From contig JAUIHI010000009.1 of the NCBI GenBank assembly GCA_030432295.1, forward strand, positions 1 to 64,000: a stretch of DNA of 64,000 nucleotides, given 5' to 3'. This DNA is from Anaerolineae bacterium. Its GTDB lineage: Bacteria > Chloroflexota > Anaerolineae > Caldilineales > Caldilineaceae. Both the position numbers and the translations under genes were made by a program. The notes below the pieces were generated by a model. That model ran no database searches, was not told where the DNA came from, and saw nothing but the letters and a program-made list of their open reading frames with translations. This document shows positions 27,973 to 36,593 of this stretch, piece after piece (the stretch's first letter is position 1; the number at the start of each line of letters is the position of its first letter).

Positions 27973-28050
27973 TTGTATACACGGATCAAAAGGAACACGG
28001 ATTTCTTCTGTGAAAATCTGTGTAATCTGCGTTCTGATTTTCGTTCTTAT
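27973..28050. repeat. short-repeat element, ACACGGAT family
   Basis: TACACGGATCAAAAGGAACACGGATTTCTTCTGTG is followed by AAAATCTGTGTAATCTGCGT. Related sequence occurs at 15477-15530, 49921-49986 and 60128-60205. It lies just upstream of the PIN-module antitoxin. Confidence 0.5.
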
Positions 28051-28122
28051 CGGTGTCAGCCGGTCGTGTGGCTTGGAATGAAAATGAACGAAGCGTGTCC
28101 AGATGTCAAAAGGATAGCACAA

Positions 28123-28362
28123 ATGACAGTTCAGACCTATCACGAATTGATTGCTGAAGGTATTAAAGAACTCCCAGAACATACGCTGGCCGAGATAACC
28201 GATTTTGTCTATTTTGTTCGGCAACGGGTGTTGGGCGAAAATGCCGAAAGCGATCTCTACCAAACTATGCTGGATTTAGAACGGAACCGACTGGTGGCTG
28301 AATCGGAGGCCCATTTGGAGGAGGAGTTTGCCGGTTATGAGCAACGCTTCCCTAGAGAGTAG
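28123..28362 (+). CDS. putative antitoxin of PIN-domain module
   Basis: This is a 79-residue acidic, helical protein: MTVQTYHELIAEGIKELPEHTLAEITDFVYFVRQRVLG followed by LERNRLVAESEAHLEEEFAGYEQRF. The first part resembles DUF2281-type antitoxin N-termini (ELPEHTLAEITDFVYFV). AAAGGA lies eight bases before the chosen ATG; longer readings run into repeat DNA. It overlaps the PIN-domain gene by 26 bp, the usual antitoxin-toxin order. Confidence 0.7.
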   Translation: MTVQTYHELIAEGIKELPEHTLAEITDFVYFVRQRVLGENAESDLYQTMLDLERNRLVAESEAHLEEEFAGYEQRFPRE

Positions 28363-28744
28363 CTACGTTGCCGACACAATGGCGATCGTTTTGCACCTGG
28401 AAGGTAGACGAACAAGCCCGCGGATTAAATCTATTTTCGATGGGGTGCTGCGGGCAGAAACGGCTATTTACGTGCCAGCGATTGTCTTTGCAGAGATTCT
28501 CTATCTCTCCGAAAGGCAGAGAATTACAGCATCTCTCGCCGACCTTCAACAGCTTCTCAACGCGAATCTCCGCATTGAAGAATTCCCGCTCTCCTTCGCT
28601 GCTGTTTCAGCCGCAGCCGAAATTACTGACATCCCCGAACTCCACGATCGGTTGATCGCCGGGACAGCCCGGTTCTTGAAAATTCCACTCCTTACAAATG
28701 ATCCTCAAATTCAGGCGTCCCGCTTTGTGCAGACGATCTGGTAA
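28337..28744 (+). CDS. VapC-like PIN-domain ribonuclease toxin
   Basis: The 135-residue product has PIN-domain acidic residues: AxD in YVADTMAIVLHLEG, E in FAEILYLSERQ, D in ELHDRLIAG and D in LLTNDPQIQ. Such proteins are magnesium-dependent RNases that cut tRNA or other RNA when released from antitoxin. GGAGGAG precedes the ATG at 28337; an in-frame TTG at 28328 is an alternative start. The gene ends six bases before the convergent ABC permease gene. Confidence 0.87.
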   Translation: MSNASLESSYVADTMAIVLHLEGRRTSPRIKSIFDGVLRAETAIYVPAIVFAEILYLSERQRITASLADLQQLLNANLRIEEFPLSFAAVSAAAEITDIPELHDRLIAGTARFLKIPLLTNDPQIQASRFVQTIW

Positions 28745-28750
28745 TTCCCG

Positions 28751-29650
28751 CTAATCCCGATTACGCGGATCAAACGCGTCGCGCAGACCGTCGCCCAGGA
28801 AGTTGAAGGCCAGCACTGTAATCACAATCATCAGGCCGGGGAAGAAGGCGATGTGGGGATAGCGCAGGATAAAGGCGCGGCCGTCGGCCAATGTGCCGCC
28901 CCAGGAAGGGTTGGGGGGACGGATACCCAGCCCCAAAAAGGAGAGGGCCGACTCCAGAATAATAATGCCGCCAATGCCCAAACTGGCCAGGACGATCACC
29001 GGCCCCATCACATTGGGCAGCAGATGGCGCCAGATGATGCGCCAGTCGCGCACGCCCACAGCCTTGGCCGCAGTGATAAAGTCCTGCTGCTTCAGGCTCA
29101 TCACCTCGGCCCGCACCACACGGGCAAAGCGCGCCCAGCCTGTAAAGCCGATAACGACGATTGTTGTGACCAGACTTGGCCCCAGCACCGCGGCCAACAC
29201 CACGAGCAGCGCAATAATCGGGAAGGCCATCAGTGTGTCGATAAGGCGGGAGAGCAGCGTATCCACCCAGCCGCCGAAATAGCCTGCCACCGCGCCGATG
29301 ACAATCCCCACCAGCACAGAAATTCCCGTCGCCACCAGCCCCACCAGCAGTGCCACCCGTGAGCCAAAGATCACCCGGCTGAGCAGGTCCCGGCCCAGGT
29401 GGTCGTAGCCGAAGGGGTGGTCCCAACTGGGGCCGACACCCCGCACCCCCCGAAAGATGTCTGTGATCGGGTCATAGGGGGCAATCAGCGGGGCAAAGAT
29501 GGCGATCAGCACCAGCAGAATGATCAGTGTCAGACCCACCAGCGACATCCGGTTGGCGCGGAAACGTTGCCAGGCCTGCAAAAGCTCGGATCGGCCACCC
29601 GGCTGGCTGGTTGCTTTGGGGGGAAGTTGGTCGGCAGATGCGACGCTCAT
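28751..29650 (-). CDS. peptide ABC transporter permease (DppC/OppC)
   Basis: This is the second membrane subunit of a dipeptide/oligopeptide importer. The N-terminal OppC segment (WQRFRANRMSLVGLTLIILLVLIAIFAPLIAPYDP, about 27-61) precedes the GYDHLGRDLLSRVIFGSRVAL motif and the EAA loop ITAAKAVGVRDWRIIWRHLLPNVMGPVIV. The protein ends ILRYPHIAFFPGLMIVITVLAFNFLGDGLRDAFDPR. Length is normal. It starts four bases downstream of the dppB stop. Confidence 0.95.
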   Translation of the reverse strand: MSVASADQLPPKATSQPGGRSELLQAWQRFRANRMSLVGLTLIILLVLIAIFAPLIAPYDPITDIFRGVRGVGPSWDHPFGYDHLGRDLLSRVIFGSRVALLVGLVATGISVLVGIVIGAVAGYFGGWVDTLLSRLIDTLMAFPIIALLVVLAAVLGPSLVTTIVVIGFTGWARFARVVRAEVMSLKQQDFITAAKAVGVRDWRIIWRHLLPNVMGPVIVLASLGIGGIIILESALSFLGLGIRPPNPSWGGTLADGRAFILRYPHIAFFPGLMIVITVLAFNFLGDGLRDAFDPRNRD

Positions 29651-29653
29651 AGG

Positions 29654-30616
29654 CTATTCTATCCGAATACGCGGGTCAATGATGGCGTAGGTCAGGTCTG
29701 TGAGCAAATTGACCAGTACGACGAGGACAGCGAGCACAACCACCAGGGATTGCACCACCTGATAGTCCAGGCGAAAGACCGAGTCGGTGAAGAGGCGGCC
29801 AATGCCGGGGATGGCGAAGACGGTCTCGACGACGATTGTGCCGCTGAGAATGAAGGCGATGCGGAAGCCGATGACTGTCACCACCGGCAGCAGGGCATTG
29901 CGCACCGCGTGGCGGGTGATCACCACATATTTTGCCAGCCCTTTGGCATAGGCCGTGCGCACGTAATCCTGGCCCAGGGCTTCAATCGTCGCCGCCCGCA
30001 TCACCCGTGTCACCACTGCCAACTGTTCGGTCGTCAGCACCAGCACCGGCAGAATGTAGCCCTGCCAGGAGCGCAGGCCGAAAGGCGGAATTTTGCCGAT
30101 GAGTGGGATGTCACCGAACCACTGGGGAATGTAGAGGACGAAAAGGACGATGAGCATCAGCCCCAGCCAGAAGTTGGGGAGGGAGACACCCAGGGTGGAG
30201 CCGACGGCGCTGGCATAATCAAAGGCCGAGTTGCGCTTGACCCCAGCCCAGATGCCGGCGGGGATGGCGACAGCCAATGAGATAAAAAGAGCAATGACAT
30301 TGATAATAGCGGTAACGGGGATGGCCTCAAAGATCATCTCCCGTACAGGGACACCCGTGCGGATCAGCGAATCACCGAAATCCCCCCGCAGCAGATTCCA
30401 GGCCCAGACCAGATATTGCTCGTAGTAGGGCCGGTCCAGCCCCCATTTGGCTTTGATGGCCTCGATCTGCTCCTGGCTGATGCGGATTTCTCCTTCGCCC
30501 AGCAGCATATAGACCGGATCACCCGGCATTAATCGCATGACAGCGAAAGTAATCAGGCTGATAAGAAAGATAACGAGAGCGCCCTGGAGCAGGCGGCGGG
30601 TGATGTAGGAGAGCAT
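29654..30616 (-). CDS. peptide ABC transporter permease (DppB/OppB)
   Basis: This is the first membrane subunit of the importer, 320 residues from MLSYITRRLLQGALVIFLISLITF. It has the family MPGDPVYMLLGEG segment, WGLDRPYYEQYLVWAWNLLRGDFGDSL and the EAA loop IEALGQDYVRTAYAKGLAKYVVITRHAVRNALLPVV. The start at 30616 is chosen over an upstream Met because the 24 extra residues (NQSSNHPFNQSPN) are encoded by an ATCAACCA-type repeat. It lies between the binding protein and dppC. Confidence 0.95.
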   Translation of the reverse strand: MLSYITRRLLQGALVIFLISLITFAVMRLMPGDPVYMLLGEGEIRISQEQIEAIKAKWGLDRPYYEQYLVWAWNLLRGDFGDSLIRTGVPVREMIFEAIPVTAIINVIALFISLAVAIPAGIWAGVKRNSAFDYASAVGSTLGVSLPNFWLGLMLIVLFVLYIPQWFGDIPLIGKIPPFGLRSWQGYILPVLVLTTEQLAVVTRVMRAATIEALGQDYVRTAYAKGLAKYVVITRHAVRNALLPVVTVIGFRIAFILSGTIVVETVFAIPGIGRLFTDSVFRLDYQVVQSLVVVLAVLVVLVNLLTDLTYAIIDPRIRIE

Positions 30617-30653
30617 AGGGAAGTTGGGTGACTGGTTGAATGGATGATTGGAT

Positions 30654-30698
30654 GACTGGTTGATTGGATGAGCAGCGAGCCTACCCAATCAACCAGTC
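30654..30698. repeat. inverted repeat, TTGATTGG family
   Basis: GACTGGTTGATTGG (30654-30667) pairs with CCAATCAACCAGTC (30685-30698) over 14 bp, with further TGGATGA units to the left. It lies between the binding-protein stop and dppB. Kindred repeats are at 55565-55652 and 60649-60707. Confidence 0.75.
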
Positions 30699-30708
30699 AA
30701 CTACTCAA

Positions 30709-32387
30709 CTAACTTTCGTCAATCCACCACTTGTACGCCTGCTGGTAAATTGGGTCGCCAGTTTTGGGATTTTCCGGCAGACCTTTGATGCGGGTGTTGA
30801 AGACGTTTATCCACTCGTCAAACTGGAGATTGAGTGCGACAACTTCATCGACAAAAATCTCCTGGATTTCGTGATAGATGGGCATCCGTTTGGCCGGATC
30901 GACCACCTGAAGCCCGGTCTCGATCAACTCATCCAGGCGGGGATTGTTGATGCCGCTGAAGTTGTTGCCGCCGGTCGAATGGAGGGTGCTGAACGGGTCC
31001 GGCTCGATGGCGGTTCCGTAGGTCCAGTTGAAGAGAGAACAATCCATCGTGCCCTCGCGCAGGGACTGTAGGATGGAAGCCACCGGCGCTTCTTCCAACT
31101 GCATATCGATGCCCACTTCCGCGAACATCTGCTGGGCCAGTTCGGCAATGGGCCGCCGGGCCTGGTCGCCGGTGATGGTTGTGCAGGTGAAGGTGAGCTT
31201 CACCCCGTCCTTTTCACGGGTGCCGTCTGCGCCAGCCAGCCAGCCAGCATCGTCCAGCATCGCGTTGGCCTTGGCCGGGTCGTACTCGTATTGGGGCAGG
31301 TCGGCATTGTAATAGGGGCTGGCCGGGGACAGATTGGAATGGCTGATCTGGGCTGCACCGTTCCAGAGGTCATCAATGATACGCTGACGATCCAGCGCGT
31401 GCATCATTGCCTTGCGTACCATTTTGTCGGACAGCGCGGGCGTTCGCAGGTTGAGCGGGAGATGTTTGATGGAGTTGGCCAGGGTGCGATAGACCACAAA
31501 GCCCGGGTCCGATTCCAGGAAGACACTGTCTTCTACCAGCAGGGGCCAGACGGCAGAATCAGCTTCACCTGATTGAAGGGCAATCATCCGCACAGAGGGT
31601 TCGGGGACCACATCCTGGCGTAGCACGTCGATGTTGGGGCGGCCCCGGAAGTGATCGTCGAAGGCTTCCAGTTCGGTGAATTCGGCGGGTCGCCACTCTT
31701 TCAGTTTGTAGGGGCCAGTGCCGATGGGTGCGGTGCGGTATGTTTCCTCGCCCACCTCCGCGTGGTATTTGGACTGGACGATAGCCGTGCCCGCCCAGCC
31801 TGTCAGGGAAGCGGCGTTGACCGATTCCATATTGACGACGACCGTATATTTGTCCGGAGCCTCCACCGAACCCACGCCCGTAAATTCACCAGCAATCGAC
31901 GCGCCGTTCTCCGGGTTGCGGTAGAAGTCGTAGGTGTAGACCACATCCTCTGCGGTGAATTCAGTGCCGTCGTGGAACTTGACCCCTTCATTGAGTTGGA
32001 AGGTGTATGTCAATCCGTCGTCGGATACATCCACCGATTTGGCCAGCACCATCTCGACTTCATTGAATTCATCGATGGCTACCAGTGGGTTGTGGATGTT
32101 GATGACCATCACCCATTCTACCGTAGGGCCAACATTGTCCGGGCCAAGCCCAGAGACTTCCTGGTGGCCCATCCACGTCATTGTGCCGCCTGCTTGGGGC
32201 CGTCGCTGGCGGCGGCGGGGGCCGCAGCTTCTGCTGGAGCAGCCGCGGGCGCTTCGCCACCACTGCTGGTTGTCGGTGCGGCGGGCGCGGCACAGGCCGC
32301 CATCAAAGCCGCGCCACTGCCCAACGCGGTATAGCGCAGGAACTCGCGGCGGCTCATTGCAGAGAGCGCAAGGGAGCGTTTCGTCAT
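30709..32387 (-). CDS. peptide ABC transporter substrate-binding lipoprotein, frameshifted
   Basis: This is an SBP_bac_5 family binding protein. The N-terminus (MTKRSLALSAMSRREFLRYTALGSG... AAC) is a Tat signal with lipobox, followed by an Ala-rich linker ending DGPKQ, but that frame stops at 32178. The mature domain (GGTMTWMGHQEVSGLG... to KWWIDES) continues in the next frame. One extra G in the CAGGCGGC at about 32189 would join them as DGPKQGGTMTW. This is either a natural one-base deletion or a sequencing error. Body motifs include TFQLNEGVKFHDGTEFTAEDVVYTYDF and GTGPYKLKEW. It heads the dpp operon. Confidence 0.8.
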
Positions 32388-32539
32388 AGGAGTCGTCCTT
32401 TCTGGAATTGGGTAACAACGCTGACAATACCGCTGATCACGCCAACCGGGGGAACGGGTTCGTGTTACCAGCGATGGGGCCTATCCACAACAAAAACAGA
32501 ACAGAGAGGATACAGAATGCCTGTGGTATAGCTGGCGTG

Positions 32540-32568: not shown

Positions 32569-32672
32569 GGAAGAATAGTGACGAAAGTTGACAAATTTTG
32601 TCGGGATAGGTGCAACAAAACGCACAGGATTCCACACAAAAGGCTGTATGGGCATACACATTAGTTCTCTCG

Positions 32673-32701
32673 TTTCCATCCAGCCAGCCCTATGCTATAA
32701 T
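32673..32701 (+). promoter_or_regulatory. extended -10 promoter of the modular-protein operon
   Basis: TGCTATAAT (TATAAT at 32696-32701, preceded by TG and one base) with a weak -35 TTTCCA 17 bases upstream. A transcript would start about 75 bases before the gene at 32784. The rest of the 396-bp gap holds the divergent promoter and no gene. Confidence 0.55.
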
Positions 32702-32783
32702 CCCCCTAATTGTCCGCTGCCGCACATCACCAGCGATTGCAGAGCGCAGGCACAAACGCGAGCCACAGAGCGAGGGTAAACAA

Positions 32784-34256
32784 ATGGACACAACGCCACA
32801 GATCGGCCAGCAGAGTACCCTATCGGGCCAAGTGACCGACCCGGACGGCACAATCCAGCCCGGCTTGCCTGTGAGCCTGCACCAGGCCAACCCCTCCCGG
32901 CTGGTGGCCCAGACGACTGTCAACGCCACGGGTCGGTATGAATTAAGCGATCTGGCCCCAGGCATCTACACCCTGCGCGTGGCTCCGGGCACCGACCAGG
33001 CCAGCGAACGGCCCGACATCTACATCAGCGGCGCGGAGGACGAGGTGCAGGATATCACTGTGCCCCAGGCTACCGGCCTGCGCTATCGGGTGACGGCCAA
33101 GCGCCTCTTGACCCCCGAAGAGACGGGCAACAGCAATCACATTTCGGGACAGGTGCTCGACGCCGACGGCAAGCCTCTGGACGACGTGACTGTGCGTATG
33201 CGTTGGACCGGGGCCGCGCCGGATATGAAATTCCCCACCGTCCAGAGCGGCCAGAGTCCCTTCCAGCCCAGAGGCTATTTTGAATTTGTCCACACCCCCG
33301 GCGTCTTCAGTGTGGAGGTGGTGGACCCCGAACACGAAAGTGAGTTGGCCGACAATCTGATCACCGCGGATATGCCCCAGCGCAGCCGGCCCATCACCTA
33401 CGAAATCACCTTCCAACTGGCGACCGCGGCCCGACCTGTGGCGGCCCGTAGCGTCATCGCCGGGCAGATTCCCGGCGGCCCGCTCAACGGCGCGGTCACC
33501 CTCAGCGGTGGCGGCGGCGAACCCCAGGCCCGCCGACTGGACCAGCAGCGCACCTTTCGTTTTGATGGCCTCCCGGCGGGCATCTATCAGGTCAGCCTGG
33601 AAGGGGTAGGGGTGATTGCCGAGGATTTGATCCTCAACGGGACAGACGAGGCCAGCGTAGACTTCCCTATGCGCGGCCAGATCAGCGGGCAGGTGCTGCC
33701 AGCCAAAGCTGGGGAAAAGGTGATGCTCACCTGTCAGGAGTACAGCATCCGCAAAGTGGCGGTCACCGGGGCCGATGGCGTCTATCGCTTTGCTGCTCTG
33801 CCCGCGGATGACTACACCCTCACTTTGCAGGAGAGCGATCTGCCCGCCCAGAAAATTTCGCTGGATGGACGCCGCCTGACCGAAGGGCCGACCTTTGAGC
33901 GCCAGCAGACTTCAGTGCCCCCGTCGCCGCCTGTGGTTCCCCCTCCGGTGACCCCGCCGCCACCCGAAGACAATCCACCCCCTGCCAGTACAAAACCCCT
34001 GCGCCACTATATGCTGCTGGACAACAGCGAACCTGCCGTGACAACCCAGCGGCTGCTCCAGGCCCAGGACTATATTCTGCGCACCAAAGTCACTGTGGGC
34101 TATGACGACGACGTTGTGACAGAGGCCGAGCGGGTCACAATTGTCGGCCCGGCTGCGTCCGAAGTCATCCAGGCCCTGGCTGCGGCGCATATCCCGGTCC
34201 AGCGGGTATCGGGCGATCTGGACAAAATTTGCCAGGAATTGGAGGCACTGCAATGA
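32784..34256 (+). CDS. modular protein with carboxypeptidase-regulatory-like domains and unrecognised C-terminal domain
   Basis: The 490-residue product lacks a signal peptide. Successive beta-sandwich modules of the Cna-B/carboxypeptidase-regulatory type are visible at about 10-70 (LSGQVTDPDGTIQPGLPVSL), 120-200 (ISGQVLDADGKPLDDVTV), 245-310 (IAGQIPGGPLNGAVTL) and 330-400 (ISGQVLPAKAGEKVML), each with a GxYxxxxLPxGxYxL end. A Pro-rich linker at about 405-430 leads to an 80-residue domain (KPLRHYMLLDNSEP... VTVGYDDDVVTEAERVTIVG) that recurs in the next gene. The start follows GAGGG. It is translationally coupled to that gene by ATGA overlap. Function unknown. Confidence 0.7.
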   Translation: MDTTPQIGQQSTLSGQVTDPDGTIQPGLPVSLHQANPSRLVAQTTVNATGRYELSDLAPGIYTLRVAPGTDQASERPDIYISGAEDEVQDITVPQATGLRYRVTAKRLLTPEETGNSNHISGQVLDADGKPLDDVTVRMRWTGAAPDMKFPTVQSGQSPFQPRGYFEFVHTPGVFSVEVVDPEHESELADNLITADMPQRSRPITYEITFQLATAARPVAARSVIAGQIPGGPLNGAVTLSGGGGEPQARRLDQQRTFRFDGLPAGIYQVSLEGVGVIAEDLILNGTDEASVDFPMRGQISGQVLPAKAGEKVMLTCQEYSIRKVAVTGADGVYRFAALPADDYTLTLQESDLPAQKISLDGRRLTEGPTFERQQTSVPPSPPVVPPPVTPPPPEDNPPPASTKPLRHYMLLDNSEPAVTTQRLLQAQDYILRTKVTVGYDDDVVTEAERVTIVGPAASEVIQALAAAHIPVQRVSGDLDKICQELEALQ

Positions 34257-35653
34257 GTTCAATGGACCGCTTTGTGCGCTGGTTGACCGGGGAAGAGGGG
34301 AATGAAAATTCGTCCTCGGATGAAAACCCCTCCCTGGGCGATAATCCTTTTTTGGGCGAAAAAAACCTGAGCCGAAAGGTGGACAGCACCGGGCTGCCCG
34401 CGTTGGAAACCAATGCCGAACCCTATGGCGTCACAGTCGAAACAGCGACAGTTGCGCCGGGAACCGCCTATTGGCGGCTGACCCGGGTCCACCACCTCAG
34501 CGCCGACGAGAACAGAGGACGCCATCACATTTATATTGACGCCCGCAAAGCCGACGGCAGCCGGGCCTTCAACACCCAGGCCCACATCACCTGGGACGGG
34601 GGCGAGCATACGACGACACTGGACAAGCCCGTCAACGAACCCGCGGCCAACTTTCCTATGTTCAAGTGGCAAAAATGCACGGTGGAAATGGTGGGAATGC
34701 CCAGCGACAAGGCCCACGGCATCAGCAGCAGCCACCCGGACGAGCCGAACCCGGACAACTCTCAAAGTGGCAACACCCTTTTCCATCACTCGTTTCTGGT
34801 GATTTTCCAAGAGATAGTCGCTCCCCAATCCGTGGCAACCGGTGAGATTCGGGGCCGGGTGGAGCACAGCCGGGACGGGCTGACTGTAGAACTGCGCCAG
34901 GCCGAGGCTGTAAAGGCCACTGCGCCCGTGGCTGGCGACGGGACCTTCGCCTTCGAGAAAGTGGCTCCGGGCGACTATATTTTGGGCTTGGAAGATCAGA
35001 GCATTCCTGTGCAGGTGAAGGCGGGCAAGACTGTCGAGCCTGTGCTTGCGTTGGCTGTCAGCGAAAGTATTATCGAGGGCACAGTCCACGGCGGCGGGGG
35101 ATTGACCCTGCGGCTGGTCTCTGGGGATGAGGTAATGGCCGAGGGTCCCCTGGGACAGAGCGGCGCTTTCCGGTTGCGCAATCTGGGCGCGGGTCTCTAT
35201 CACGTGCAGGTGCTGCGTACTGACGAGAGCGAACCGGCAGTCGAATCCGGCGCGCTGGCCATGGACGGCAGCAATAAGCGCACGGTGGAGTTGACCGTAC
35301 CAGAACCGGAATCAGAACCAGAACCCGTGCCCGTTCCGCCAACACCAGGTCCGGTTCCAAGTGATCCCCCGGCGACTCCCGTCAGCAGCGGCTCGCCGTT
35401 GGATCATTACGTACTCTTCCCAGACGACGACACTCCCGAAAATCGGGCGCAGCTGGCCGCTTTGCTTCCTCAACTGGCCGAGAAGAACTTGGCCTTCGGC
35501 TTCGATTATCAAGAAGCGGCCCGGTCCAATACGGTGACTGTCGTGGGTGGCGAGGATGGGATCCCTGCGTCCCAGTTGAGCTTTCTCCTCGGCAAAGGCG
35601 TGGCGTTGAATCAACTGACAGGAACGCCGGAAGAGAATGCCGCACAGGTGTGA
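34253..35653 (+). CDS. modular protein sharing the C-terminal domain of its neighbour
   Basis: The 466-residue product starts MSSMDRFVRWLTGEEG, with no signal peptide. After an acidic Asn/Ser stretch, residues about 55-195 form a domain with YWRLTRVHHLSADENRGRHH, NTQAHITWDGGEHTTTLDKPVNEPAANFPM and GNTLFHHSFLVIFQEI. Two short beta modules follow (GRVEHSRDGLTVELRQ; GTVHGGGGLTLRLVSG), then a Pro/Glu linker (PEPESEPEPVPVPPTPGP) and a C-terminal domain (SPLDHYVLFPDDDTPENRAQ... NTVTVVGGEDGIPASQLSFLLG) similar to that of the preceding gene. No family can be named. The pair probably works together, perhaps carbohydrate-related given downstream genes. Confidence 0.7.
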   Translation: MSSMDRFVRWLTGEEGNENSSSDENPSLGDNPFLGEKNLSRKVDSTGLPALETNAEPYGVTVETATVAPGTAYWRLTRVHHLSADENRGRHHIYIDARKADGSRAFNTQAHITWDGGEHTTTLDKPVNEPAANFPMFKWQKCTVEMVGMPSDKAHGISSSHPDEPNPDNSQSGNTLFHHSFLVIFQEIVAPQSVATGEIRGRVEHSRDGLTVELRQAEAVKATAPVAGDGTFAFEKVAPGDYILGLEDQSIPVQVKAGKTVEPVLALAVSESIIEGTVHGGGGLTLRLVSGDEVMAEGPLGQSGAFRLRNLGAGLYHVQVLRTDESEPAVESGALAMDGSNKRTVELTVPEPESEPEPVPVPPTPGPVPSDPPATPVSSGSPLDHYVLFPDDDTPENRAQLAALLPQLAEKNLAFGFDYQEAARSNTVTVVGGEDGIPASQLSFLLGKGVALNQLTGTPEENAAQV

Positions 35654-35732: not shown

Positions 35733-36593
35733 ATGAGTCGCATCTCAACCCGCTTTGTGGTCTGTAATGGCGACCTGATCCCGCCCGGTGCGGCGACGGT
35801 CTCTGTACTGGGCAGCACCCTCTATGGAGCGTTCGGCGTTTACGAAAGCATCCAACTCTGGAACGGCGTCGTCTTCCATCTGGACGATCACCTGTCCCGG
35901 TTGCTGGCTTCGGCGGCTGCTATTGGCTTGCCCCTCTCCGGCGATCTGGCCGTCCATCGGGACTGGGTGCATCAACTGATCCAGGCGGAAGGCAGCCCGC
36001 TCGATGCAACCATTCGCCTCTTTTCTGTCGGTCCGGAAGCCGACGCTCAGCCCCGCAGCTTTCTCTGGCTGGAACCTCTGCACCCACCTTCGCCCCAAAT
36101 GATTCGTGACGGTGTGGGTGCGGTCAGCTATTCGGGTGAGCGGGCGCTGCCGACGGTCAAGTCCCTGAATACACTCGTCAATACGCTGGCCCGTCACGCT
36201 TCCCAGGCCGCGGACGAACACGAAGGGCTGCTGGTGGACGCCGACGGCAATGTGCGGGAAGGGGCCAGCAGCACTTTTTACGCCGTGCAGGAAGGAGCGC
36301 TCCTCATCCCCCCGCCAGAGGATATTCTGGAAGGGGTGACGTTGCAGATCGTTCTCGACCTGGCCGAGGACGCGGGGATTCCCGTGCACCGTCTCCCCCT
36401 GCCTTTGGCCGAACGGGACGGGTGGGATGAAGCCTTTCTCACCAGCACCAGCCGCCATATTTTACCTCTGGTTCGGCTGGACGGAAATGCAATCGGTAAT
36501 GGCACACCCGGCCTACTGACGAAGGAACTGTCCCGGCGCTTTGAGGCATACTTTGAGAAAGTGACGGGGCGAGCCTATGGGTTGAATGTATGA
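35733..36593 (+). CDS. class IV PLP aminotransferase / aminodeoxychorismate lyase-like
   Basis: This is a 286-residue fold-type IV PLP enzyme of the branched-chain aminotransferase, D-amino acid aminotransferase and PabC group. The PLP lysine is K143 in LPTVKSLNTLVNTLA. DADGNVREGASSTFYAV and PPPEDILEGVTLQIVLDLAED match the cofactor glutamate and phosphate-binding regions. An N-terminal YGAFGVYESIQLWNG precedes. Which amino or keto acid it uses cannot be told. It overlaps the next gene by four bases, placing it in the glycan-type operon, where it might supply an amino sugar or amino acid substituent. Confidence 0.87.
   Translation: MSRISTRFVVCNGDLIPPGAATVSVLGSTLYGAFGVYESIQLWNGVVFHLDDHLSRLLASAAAIGLPLSGDLAVHRDWVHQLIQAEGSPLDATIRLFSVGPEADAQPRSFLWLEPLHPPSPQMIRDGVGAVSYSGERALPTVKSLNTLVNTLARHASQAADEHEGLLVDADGNVREGASSTFYAVQEGALLIPPPEDILEGVTLQIVLDLAEDAGIPVHRLPLPLAERDGWDEAFLTSTSRHILPLVRLDGNAIGNGTPGLLTKELSRRFEAYFEKVTGRAYGLNV

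Follow-up and report, generated by a model that had tools for sequence, protein, structure and literature searches.

A conserved gene pair of Anaerolineae encodes leaderless proteins that share a CWB2-like C-terminal domain

We analysed a stretch of 64,000 nucleotides from an Anaerolineae bacterium (contig JAUIHI010000009.1, positions 1 to 64,000), here called the window, and found that two of its genes, A and B (Table 1), represent a real, conserved two-gene unit whose products end in homologous C-terminal domains (CTDs). According to the best reading of its sequence, the CTD would be a divergent, single-copy wall-polymer-binding module that is CWB2-like (CW_binding_2, PF04122) and not a member of CWB2. 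As an explanation of the pair we tentatively suggest, with a confidence that stops a little short of even, that A and B are a co-translated cell-envelope pair in which rods of prealbumin-like modules each end in one polymer-binding CTD of this kind.

Both genes and their ATGA overlap (34253-34256) had been placed correctly in a preliminary description of the sequence, which was also right that neither protein has an export signal and that sugar-modification genes lie downstream: the aminotransferase class IV gene is followed by glycosyltransferases, and the downstream genes are rich in the GT2, PMT_2, and GT1 families. The aminotransferase gene is kept behind B in seven loci from Caldilineaceae (the family of the window) and near relatives. 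On the other side, directly 5' of A and on the opposite strand, lie peptide-type ABC transporter genes (28751-32427; two permeases and a binding protein, as judged by sequence), which are absent from the corresponding position in locus L080. A small gene pair at 27973-28744 resembles VapBC-type toxin–antitoxin genes on a reading of the sequence only, its second gene being PIN-like.

Table 1. Positions of the A-B gene pair, its domains, and flanking elements in the window.
Feature	Position	Strand	Description and evidence
Promoter-like element TATGCTATAAT, 5' of gene A	32691-32701	+	extended -10 type; read from sequence; blastn
Gene A	32784-34256	+	490 aa; leaderless; three CarboxypepD_reg (prealbumin-like) modules, Pro-rich linker, CTD; lacks the TIM-like domain with which A of relatives starts
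Pro-rich linker of A	33906-33995	+	sequence
CTD of A	33996-34253	+	86 residues; CWB2-like alpha/beta domain; profile match 2.0e-30
Gene B	34253-35653	+	466 aa; leaderless; BN domain, two prealbumin-like modules, Pro-rich linker, CTD
BN domain of B (VHHLS...HHIYID)	34400-34828	+	AlphaFold2 pLDDT 95.8
Two CarboxypepD_reg/EMC7-like modules of B	34847-35302	+	first by Pfam; second by repeat-like sequence only
Pro-rich linker of B	35306-35395	+	sequence
CTD of B	35396-35650	+	85 residues; CWB2-like alpha/beta domain; profile match 8.9e-28
Aminotransferase class IV gene, 3' of A-B	35733-36593	+	Pfam PF01063 1.1e-38

The modules of A were recognized by Pfam in three stretches (PF13620, 2.1e-26), and the first module of B matched PF09430 (2.9e-06, 27.9 bits at a cut-off of 26.6) as well as PF13620 (2.2e-05). 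Such CarboxypepD_reg/Cna-B modules (PF13620) are ordinary linker or rod modules that occur as repeats in A and B and do not define the pair. The N-terminal parts of the two proteins are less different than in the earlier view: B also has Cna-B/CarboxypepD_reg-like modules, and BN itself is modelled by AlphaFold2 as a prealbumin/Cna-B-like beta-sandwich with an N-terminal extension. The best structural matches of this model were 6fwv (Z 7.5) and transthyretin (Z 7.1), and by sequence BN matched nothing in the PDB and only weakly in Pfam. The settings of BN outside the pair are mostly extracytoplasmic in type; in the same genome, tandem BN domains stand on a protein with an N-terminal transmembrane (TM) segment or signal. 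Two further BN proteins were observed. One, in the window's own genome (C15, L147 8781-11495), has four cNMP-binding domains, a TM segment, a linker, and a C-terminal BN, and thus the look of a membrane-spanning sensor; the other, in another genome (L046 123-2189), combines BN with SH3_3, an N-acetylmuramidase domain (PF11860), and a C-terminal hydrophobic (2TM-like) region and has no N-terminal signal.

The pair occurs in many families of the class, a wide range of filamentous Chloroflexota, and the genomes of the same genus that have it include MAGs assigned to Litorilinea aerophila. A CTD-bearing A lies directly upstream of B in 47 of 51 loci (the window and 50 others); the four exceptions are a locus cut by a contig end (L099), a single fused protein (L119), and two loci in which no A adjoins B (L087 and L113). 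Wherever a copy of B lacks the CTD, the gene is truncated at the end of its contig.

The preliminary description also needs correction in that the A protein of the window is a shortened form. Its relatives, of about 1000 aa, carry about 450 extra N-terminal residues, with a TIM-like domain of about 380 residues at the N-terminus ('FPRPPDDNGRGVHWS') that starts A in every locus with an uncut A, except the window and L080, a Litorilinea relative. This domain had no sequence match in Pfam or the PDB; its NEP and TEGG motifs liken it to clan GH-A glycosidases. Of the two presumed catalytic glutamates in these motifs, the acid/base residue is conserved in 36 of 39 sequences and the nucleophile in 40 of 41, and both are lost in L084. 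As the promoter-like stretch 5' of A is common to relatives (by blastn, window positions 32671-32706 correspond to the stretch upstream of A in L080 and L081), the TIM-like domain was probably lost from the A of the window by internal deletion. The sole A-type TIM copy that we found in the window's genome (C26, L194 6216-8837) is a 35-48% TIM paralogue with prealbumin-like repeats, no CTD, and replacements of both glutamates. Since it is such a diverged, CTD-less paralogue, the idea that the missing half of A has simply been relocated in the genome was rejected.

That A and B share a C-terminal domain behind a Pro-rich linker is borne out by several comparisons. The first 51 residues of the two CTDs align without gaps, with a local BLOSUM62 score of 55, whereas none of 5000 shuffles scored above 47. 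Profiles built without the window recovered both of its copies (1e-22 to 1e-24): the profile of A-type CTDs from other genomes matched the A of the window at 6e-24 and B at 1.7e-12, and the profile of B-type CTDs matched B at 1.5e-22 and A at 2.3e-15. Each profile also recovered the other type: the A-profile found all 46 copies of B, and the B-profile missed one of the 47 copies of A. A tree was built from 119 CTDs; its deep forks are weak, but A and B copies clustered strongly (3 label changes each, compared to 37 in shuffles), and the two types thus form largely separate lineages.

AlphaFold2 confidently predicted the CTD as a four-stranded alpha/beta Rossmann-like fold (pLDDT 93.9, pTM 0.83, 78 aligned sequences). 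The matches listed by structure searches with Foldseek and VIA-align were all generic Rossmann matches with Z < 8, NAD kinase being the best (Z 7.1), and no CWB2 chain was among them; we rejected an identification of the CTD by fold on this ground. A search of the viral library with the CTD gave nothing clear.

Sequence profiles connected the CTD to CWB2. Against all PDB sequences, the best matches of the CTD profile were CWB2 proteins (7 of 7, 4.5e-4 to 3e-3), and a search with canonical CTD copies found Cwp8 at 4.1e-11, SlpA HMW chains at 1e-8 to 1.6e-7, and the Cwp6 amidase at 0.002, the first family other than CWB2 following at E 0.011. With the broad alignment A3 of the CTD the match drops to E 0.026, so that it is mainly the canonical copies that carry the claim. 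Using hhalign, the CTD was matched to CWB2 units of other Chloroflexota at 91, 84, and 68% with three CTD alignments, all in the same register, compared to 0.4% for BN as a control. The NCBIfam Clostridium S-layer model matched the CTD of L140 (1.6e-4), and the ten best matches of a CWB2 profile on 7947 ORFs were all CTD proteins, not all of them matched on the CTD itself. In two scans of CTD rows (17 and 15), Pfam CW_binding_2 gave no match even at E 10, and it matched nothing in 31 genomes, one of them the genome of the window. The similarity is limited to the second half of the CTD (about 40 columns, VxIVGG..VS..L..G..VxRxxG), and the ATG..FPDAL half, present in the CWB2 alignments A6 and A7, is absent from the CTD alignments A3 and A5. 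Since the likeness stops at one half, without an FPDAL counterpart, and the Pfam model finds nothing, we call the domain CWB2-like.

The likeness to CWB2 of C. difficile SlpA, Cwp6, and Cwp8 thus lies in the VxIVGGxxxVSxxxxxxLxxxGxxVxRxxG half, the collinear register, and the surface and amidase proteins as carriers. CWB2 units occur in three tandem copies, which exchange strands with each other and presumably bind wall polymer (PMC8881574; PMC9045149), whereas the CTD is present once per protein, is a compact single domain in the AlphaFold model, unlike the strand-swapping units (PMC8881574), and sits on proteins without a signal peptide, unlike CWB2 proteins. A further parallel is the C. difficile phage endolysin CD16/50L, which is leaderless and dimeric and binds wall polysaccharide by a simplified, single-copy CWB2 relative; like the CTD, this binding domain is Rossmann-like, has no Pfam entry, and forms the C-terminus of a wall-active protein that has no leader (PMC9045149). 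However, CD16/50L is a phage lysis protein that is released by holin and acts as a homodimer, whereas the CTD belongs to gene pairs on the chromosome and to proteins with three amidase domains. Among phages, no homologue of B was found.

Within the class, the CTD profile matched 85 of 199 genomes; in a sample of 301 genomes from the whole phylum, the profile with canonical copies matched 19. Three contexts were seen, namely A-B pairs, TIM+CTD proteins of 440-460 residues, which are also found outside the class, and Amidase_2 proteins of 700-1400 residues, one of which is encoded by the same genome as the window (L137 5347-9276); the partner modules are presumed glycosidase-like TIM-barrel, Amidase_2, and prealbumin-like domains. 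The domain is therefore not private to the pair. The preliminary description had named single homologues in unrelated contexts beforehand as a finding that would refute its two-component assembly. Such homologues exist in other leaderless proteins (TIM+CTD, and TIM-like + 3x Amidase_2 + CTD), so that of the proposed two-component unit the uncatalogued domain and the pairing stand, but not its specificity for the pair. In the Amidase_2 proteins, the last Amidase_2 has zinc-type GHxE...CPG motifs and the earlier copies are mostly without them, and this arrangement of zinc-less copies next to one zinc-type copy suggests wall binding. There is one CTD per protein, always at the C-terminus; of 124 CTD ORFs, nearly all end within 0-15 residues of it. 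An N-terminal hydrophobic segment was found in no member of the CTD family; in many loci, a stop codon lies just 5-20 residues ahead of the first domain, which excludes a hidden signal peptide there.

The minimal TIM+CTD gene is preceded in several loci (L198, L199, L200, L201, L202, L204, L142) by a gene for a leaderless TPR protein of ~800-890 aa with a Peptidase_C25-like domain. Several loci have a second long TPR protein before it, and the catalytic His/Cys is lost in some copies. In two Anaerolineae genomes, the CTD gene is immediately followed by an FtsZ gene with PF00091 and PF12327 (L203 6328-7443, L204 7781-9163). A C25 protease as a universal CTD-processing partner was considered and rejected, since it is present in only 22 of 199 class genomes, no C25 homologue was found in the window's genome, and the gene is missing from most CTD-bearing genomes.

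In the envelope pair that we propose, each CTD would bind a wall or surface polymer, by analogy with its relatives, the ligand expected of CWB2 being an anionic secondary wall polymer. Because the CTD resembles CWB2, a wall polymer is the likely common partner of the two domains. The clan GH-A-like TIM domain of an ancestral A may have acted on, or bound, the same glycan, and its loss in the lineage of the window would have left scaffold and anchor. The single CTDs of A and B could combine to hold the polymer, as CWB2 trimers and endolysin dimers do. An envelope location would fit the glycan or peptidoglycan modules that accompany the CTD (Amidase_2, and TIM with NEP and TEGG), the downstream GT2, PMT_2, and GT1 genes, and the position of BN behind a TM segment elsewhere in the genome. 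Its main difficulty is export, as in a family without any signal peptide an extracellular role needs another export route. The lack of signal peptides would suit a cytosolic pair that binds or acts on an intracellular glycan or precursor, with the CTD as a small Rossmann-type ligand-binding or dimerisation domain, and so would the generic Rossmann matches led by NAD kinase and the company of the minimal TIM+CTD genes, whose cytosolic-looking TPR/C25 and, in two loci, FtsZ neighbours speak against the envelope. Amidase_2 enzymes can be cytosolic as well, AmpD being an example. We nevertheless regard a cytosolic pair as unlikely, if still worth serious thought, in view of the CWB2 similarity, the zinc-less Amidase_2 copies, the extracytoplasmic BN domains elsewhere, and the Pro-rich linkers and prealbumin rods, which are typical of surface proteins.

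The export problem would be solved differently if the CTD were a C-terminal export or sorting tag of a signal-peptide-independent Chloroflexota secretion system and the preceding modules its cargo. The CTD is always the last domain, and the leaderless proteins that it ends carry modules of extracellular type; a TM segment or signal makes the paralogous BN domains extracytoplasmic; and GhlA, the surface hook protein of L. aerophila, is likewise reported to have no signal peptide (PMC13319060). The C-terminal domain on many cargoes and the C25 gene near minimal TIM+CTD genes are also reminiscent of type IX secretion with its C25 sortase, but the type IX cargo domain is a beta-sandwich behind a Sec signal, whereas the CTD is alpha/beta without one. 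As no linked transporter was found and the C25 gene has the limited distribution described above, we consider an export tag rather improbable; a role as eCIS cargo was rejected, since CTD and the eCIS marker PF14065 occur together in 24 genomes compared to 25.6 expected (p 0.64). Poorer still are the prospects of the strict form of the preliminary description, in which the CTD is a protein–protein dock by which A and B bind each other or a shared protein: the pairing in 47 of 51 loci and the separate A and B lineages agree with it, but CTDs occur singly on other proteins of the same and other genomes, and in L087 and L113 no A stands next to B. We give an equally small chance to a more far-reaching version of the envelope pair, in which a CWB2-type anchor is split over two polypeptides, the CTDs of A and B must assemble, and the CTD also exports leaderless proteins by an undescribed Chloroflexota route.

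The envelope layers of Chloroflexota are poorly known, and the conserved leaderless A-B pair is a concrete candidate for a component of them. Litorilinea has a lattice-like protein layer of unidentified composition and an inner layer of which the same is true (PMC13319060); together with the leaderless GhlA, these layers make the envelope pair a testable idea in L. aerophila. If A and B are located outside the cell, the question of their export path arises. The wider CTD family, with its amidase and TIM+CTD proteins, offers a handle on wall remodelling in the phylum.
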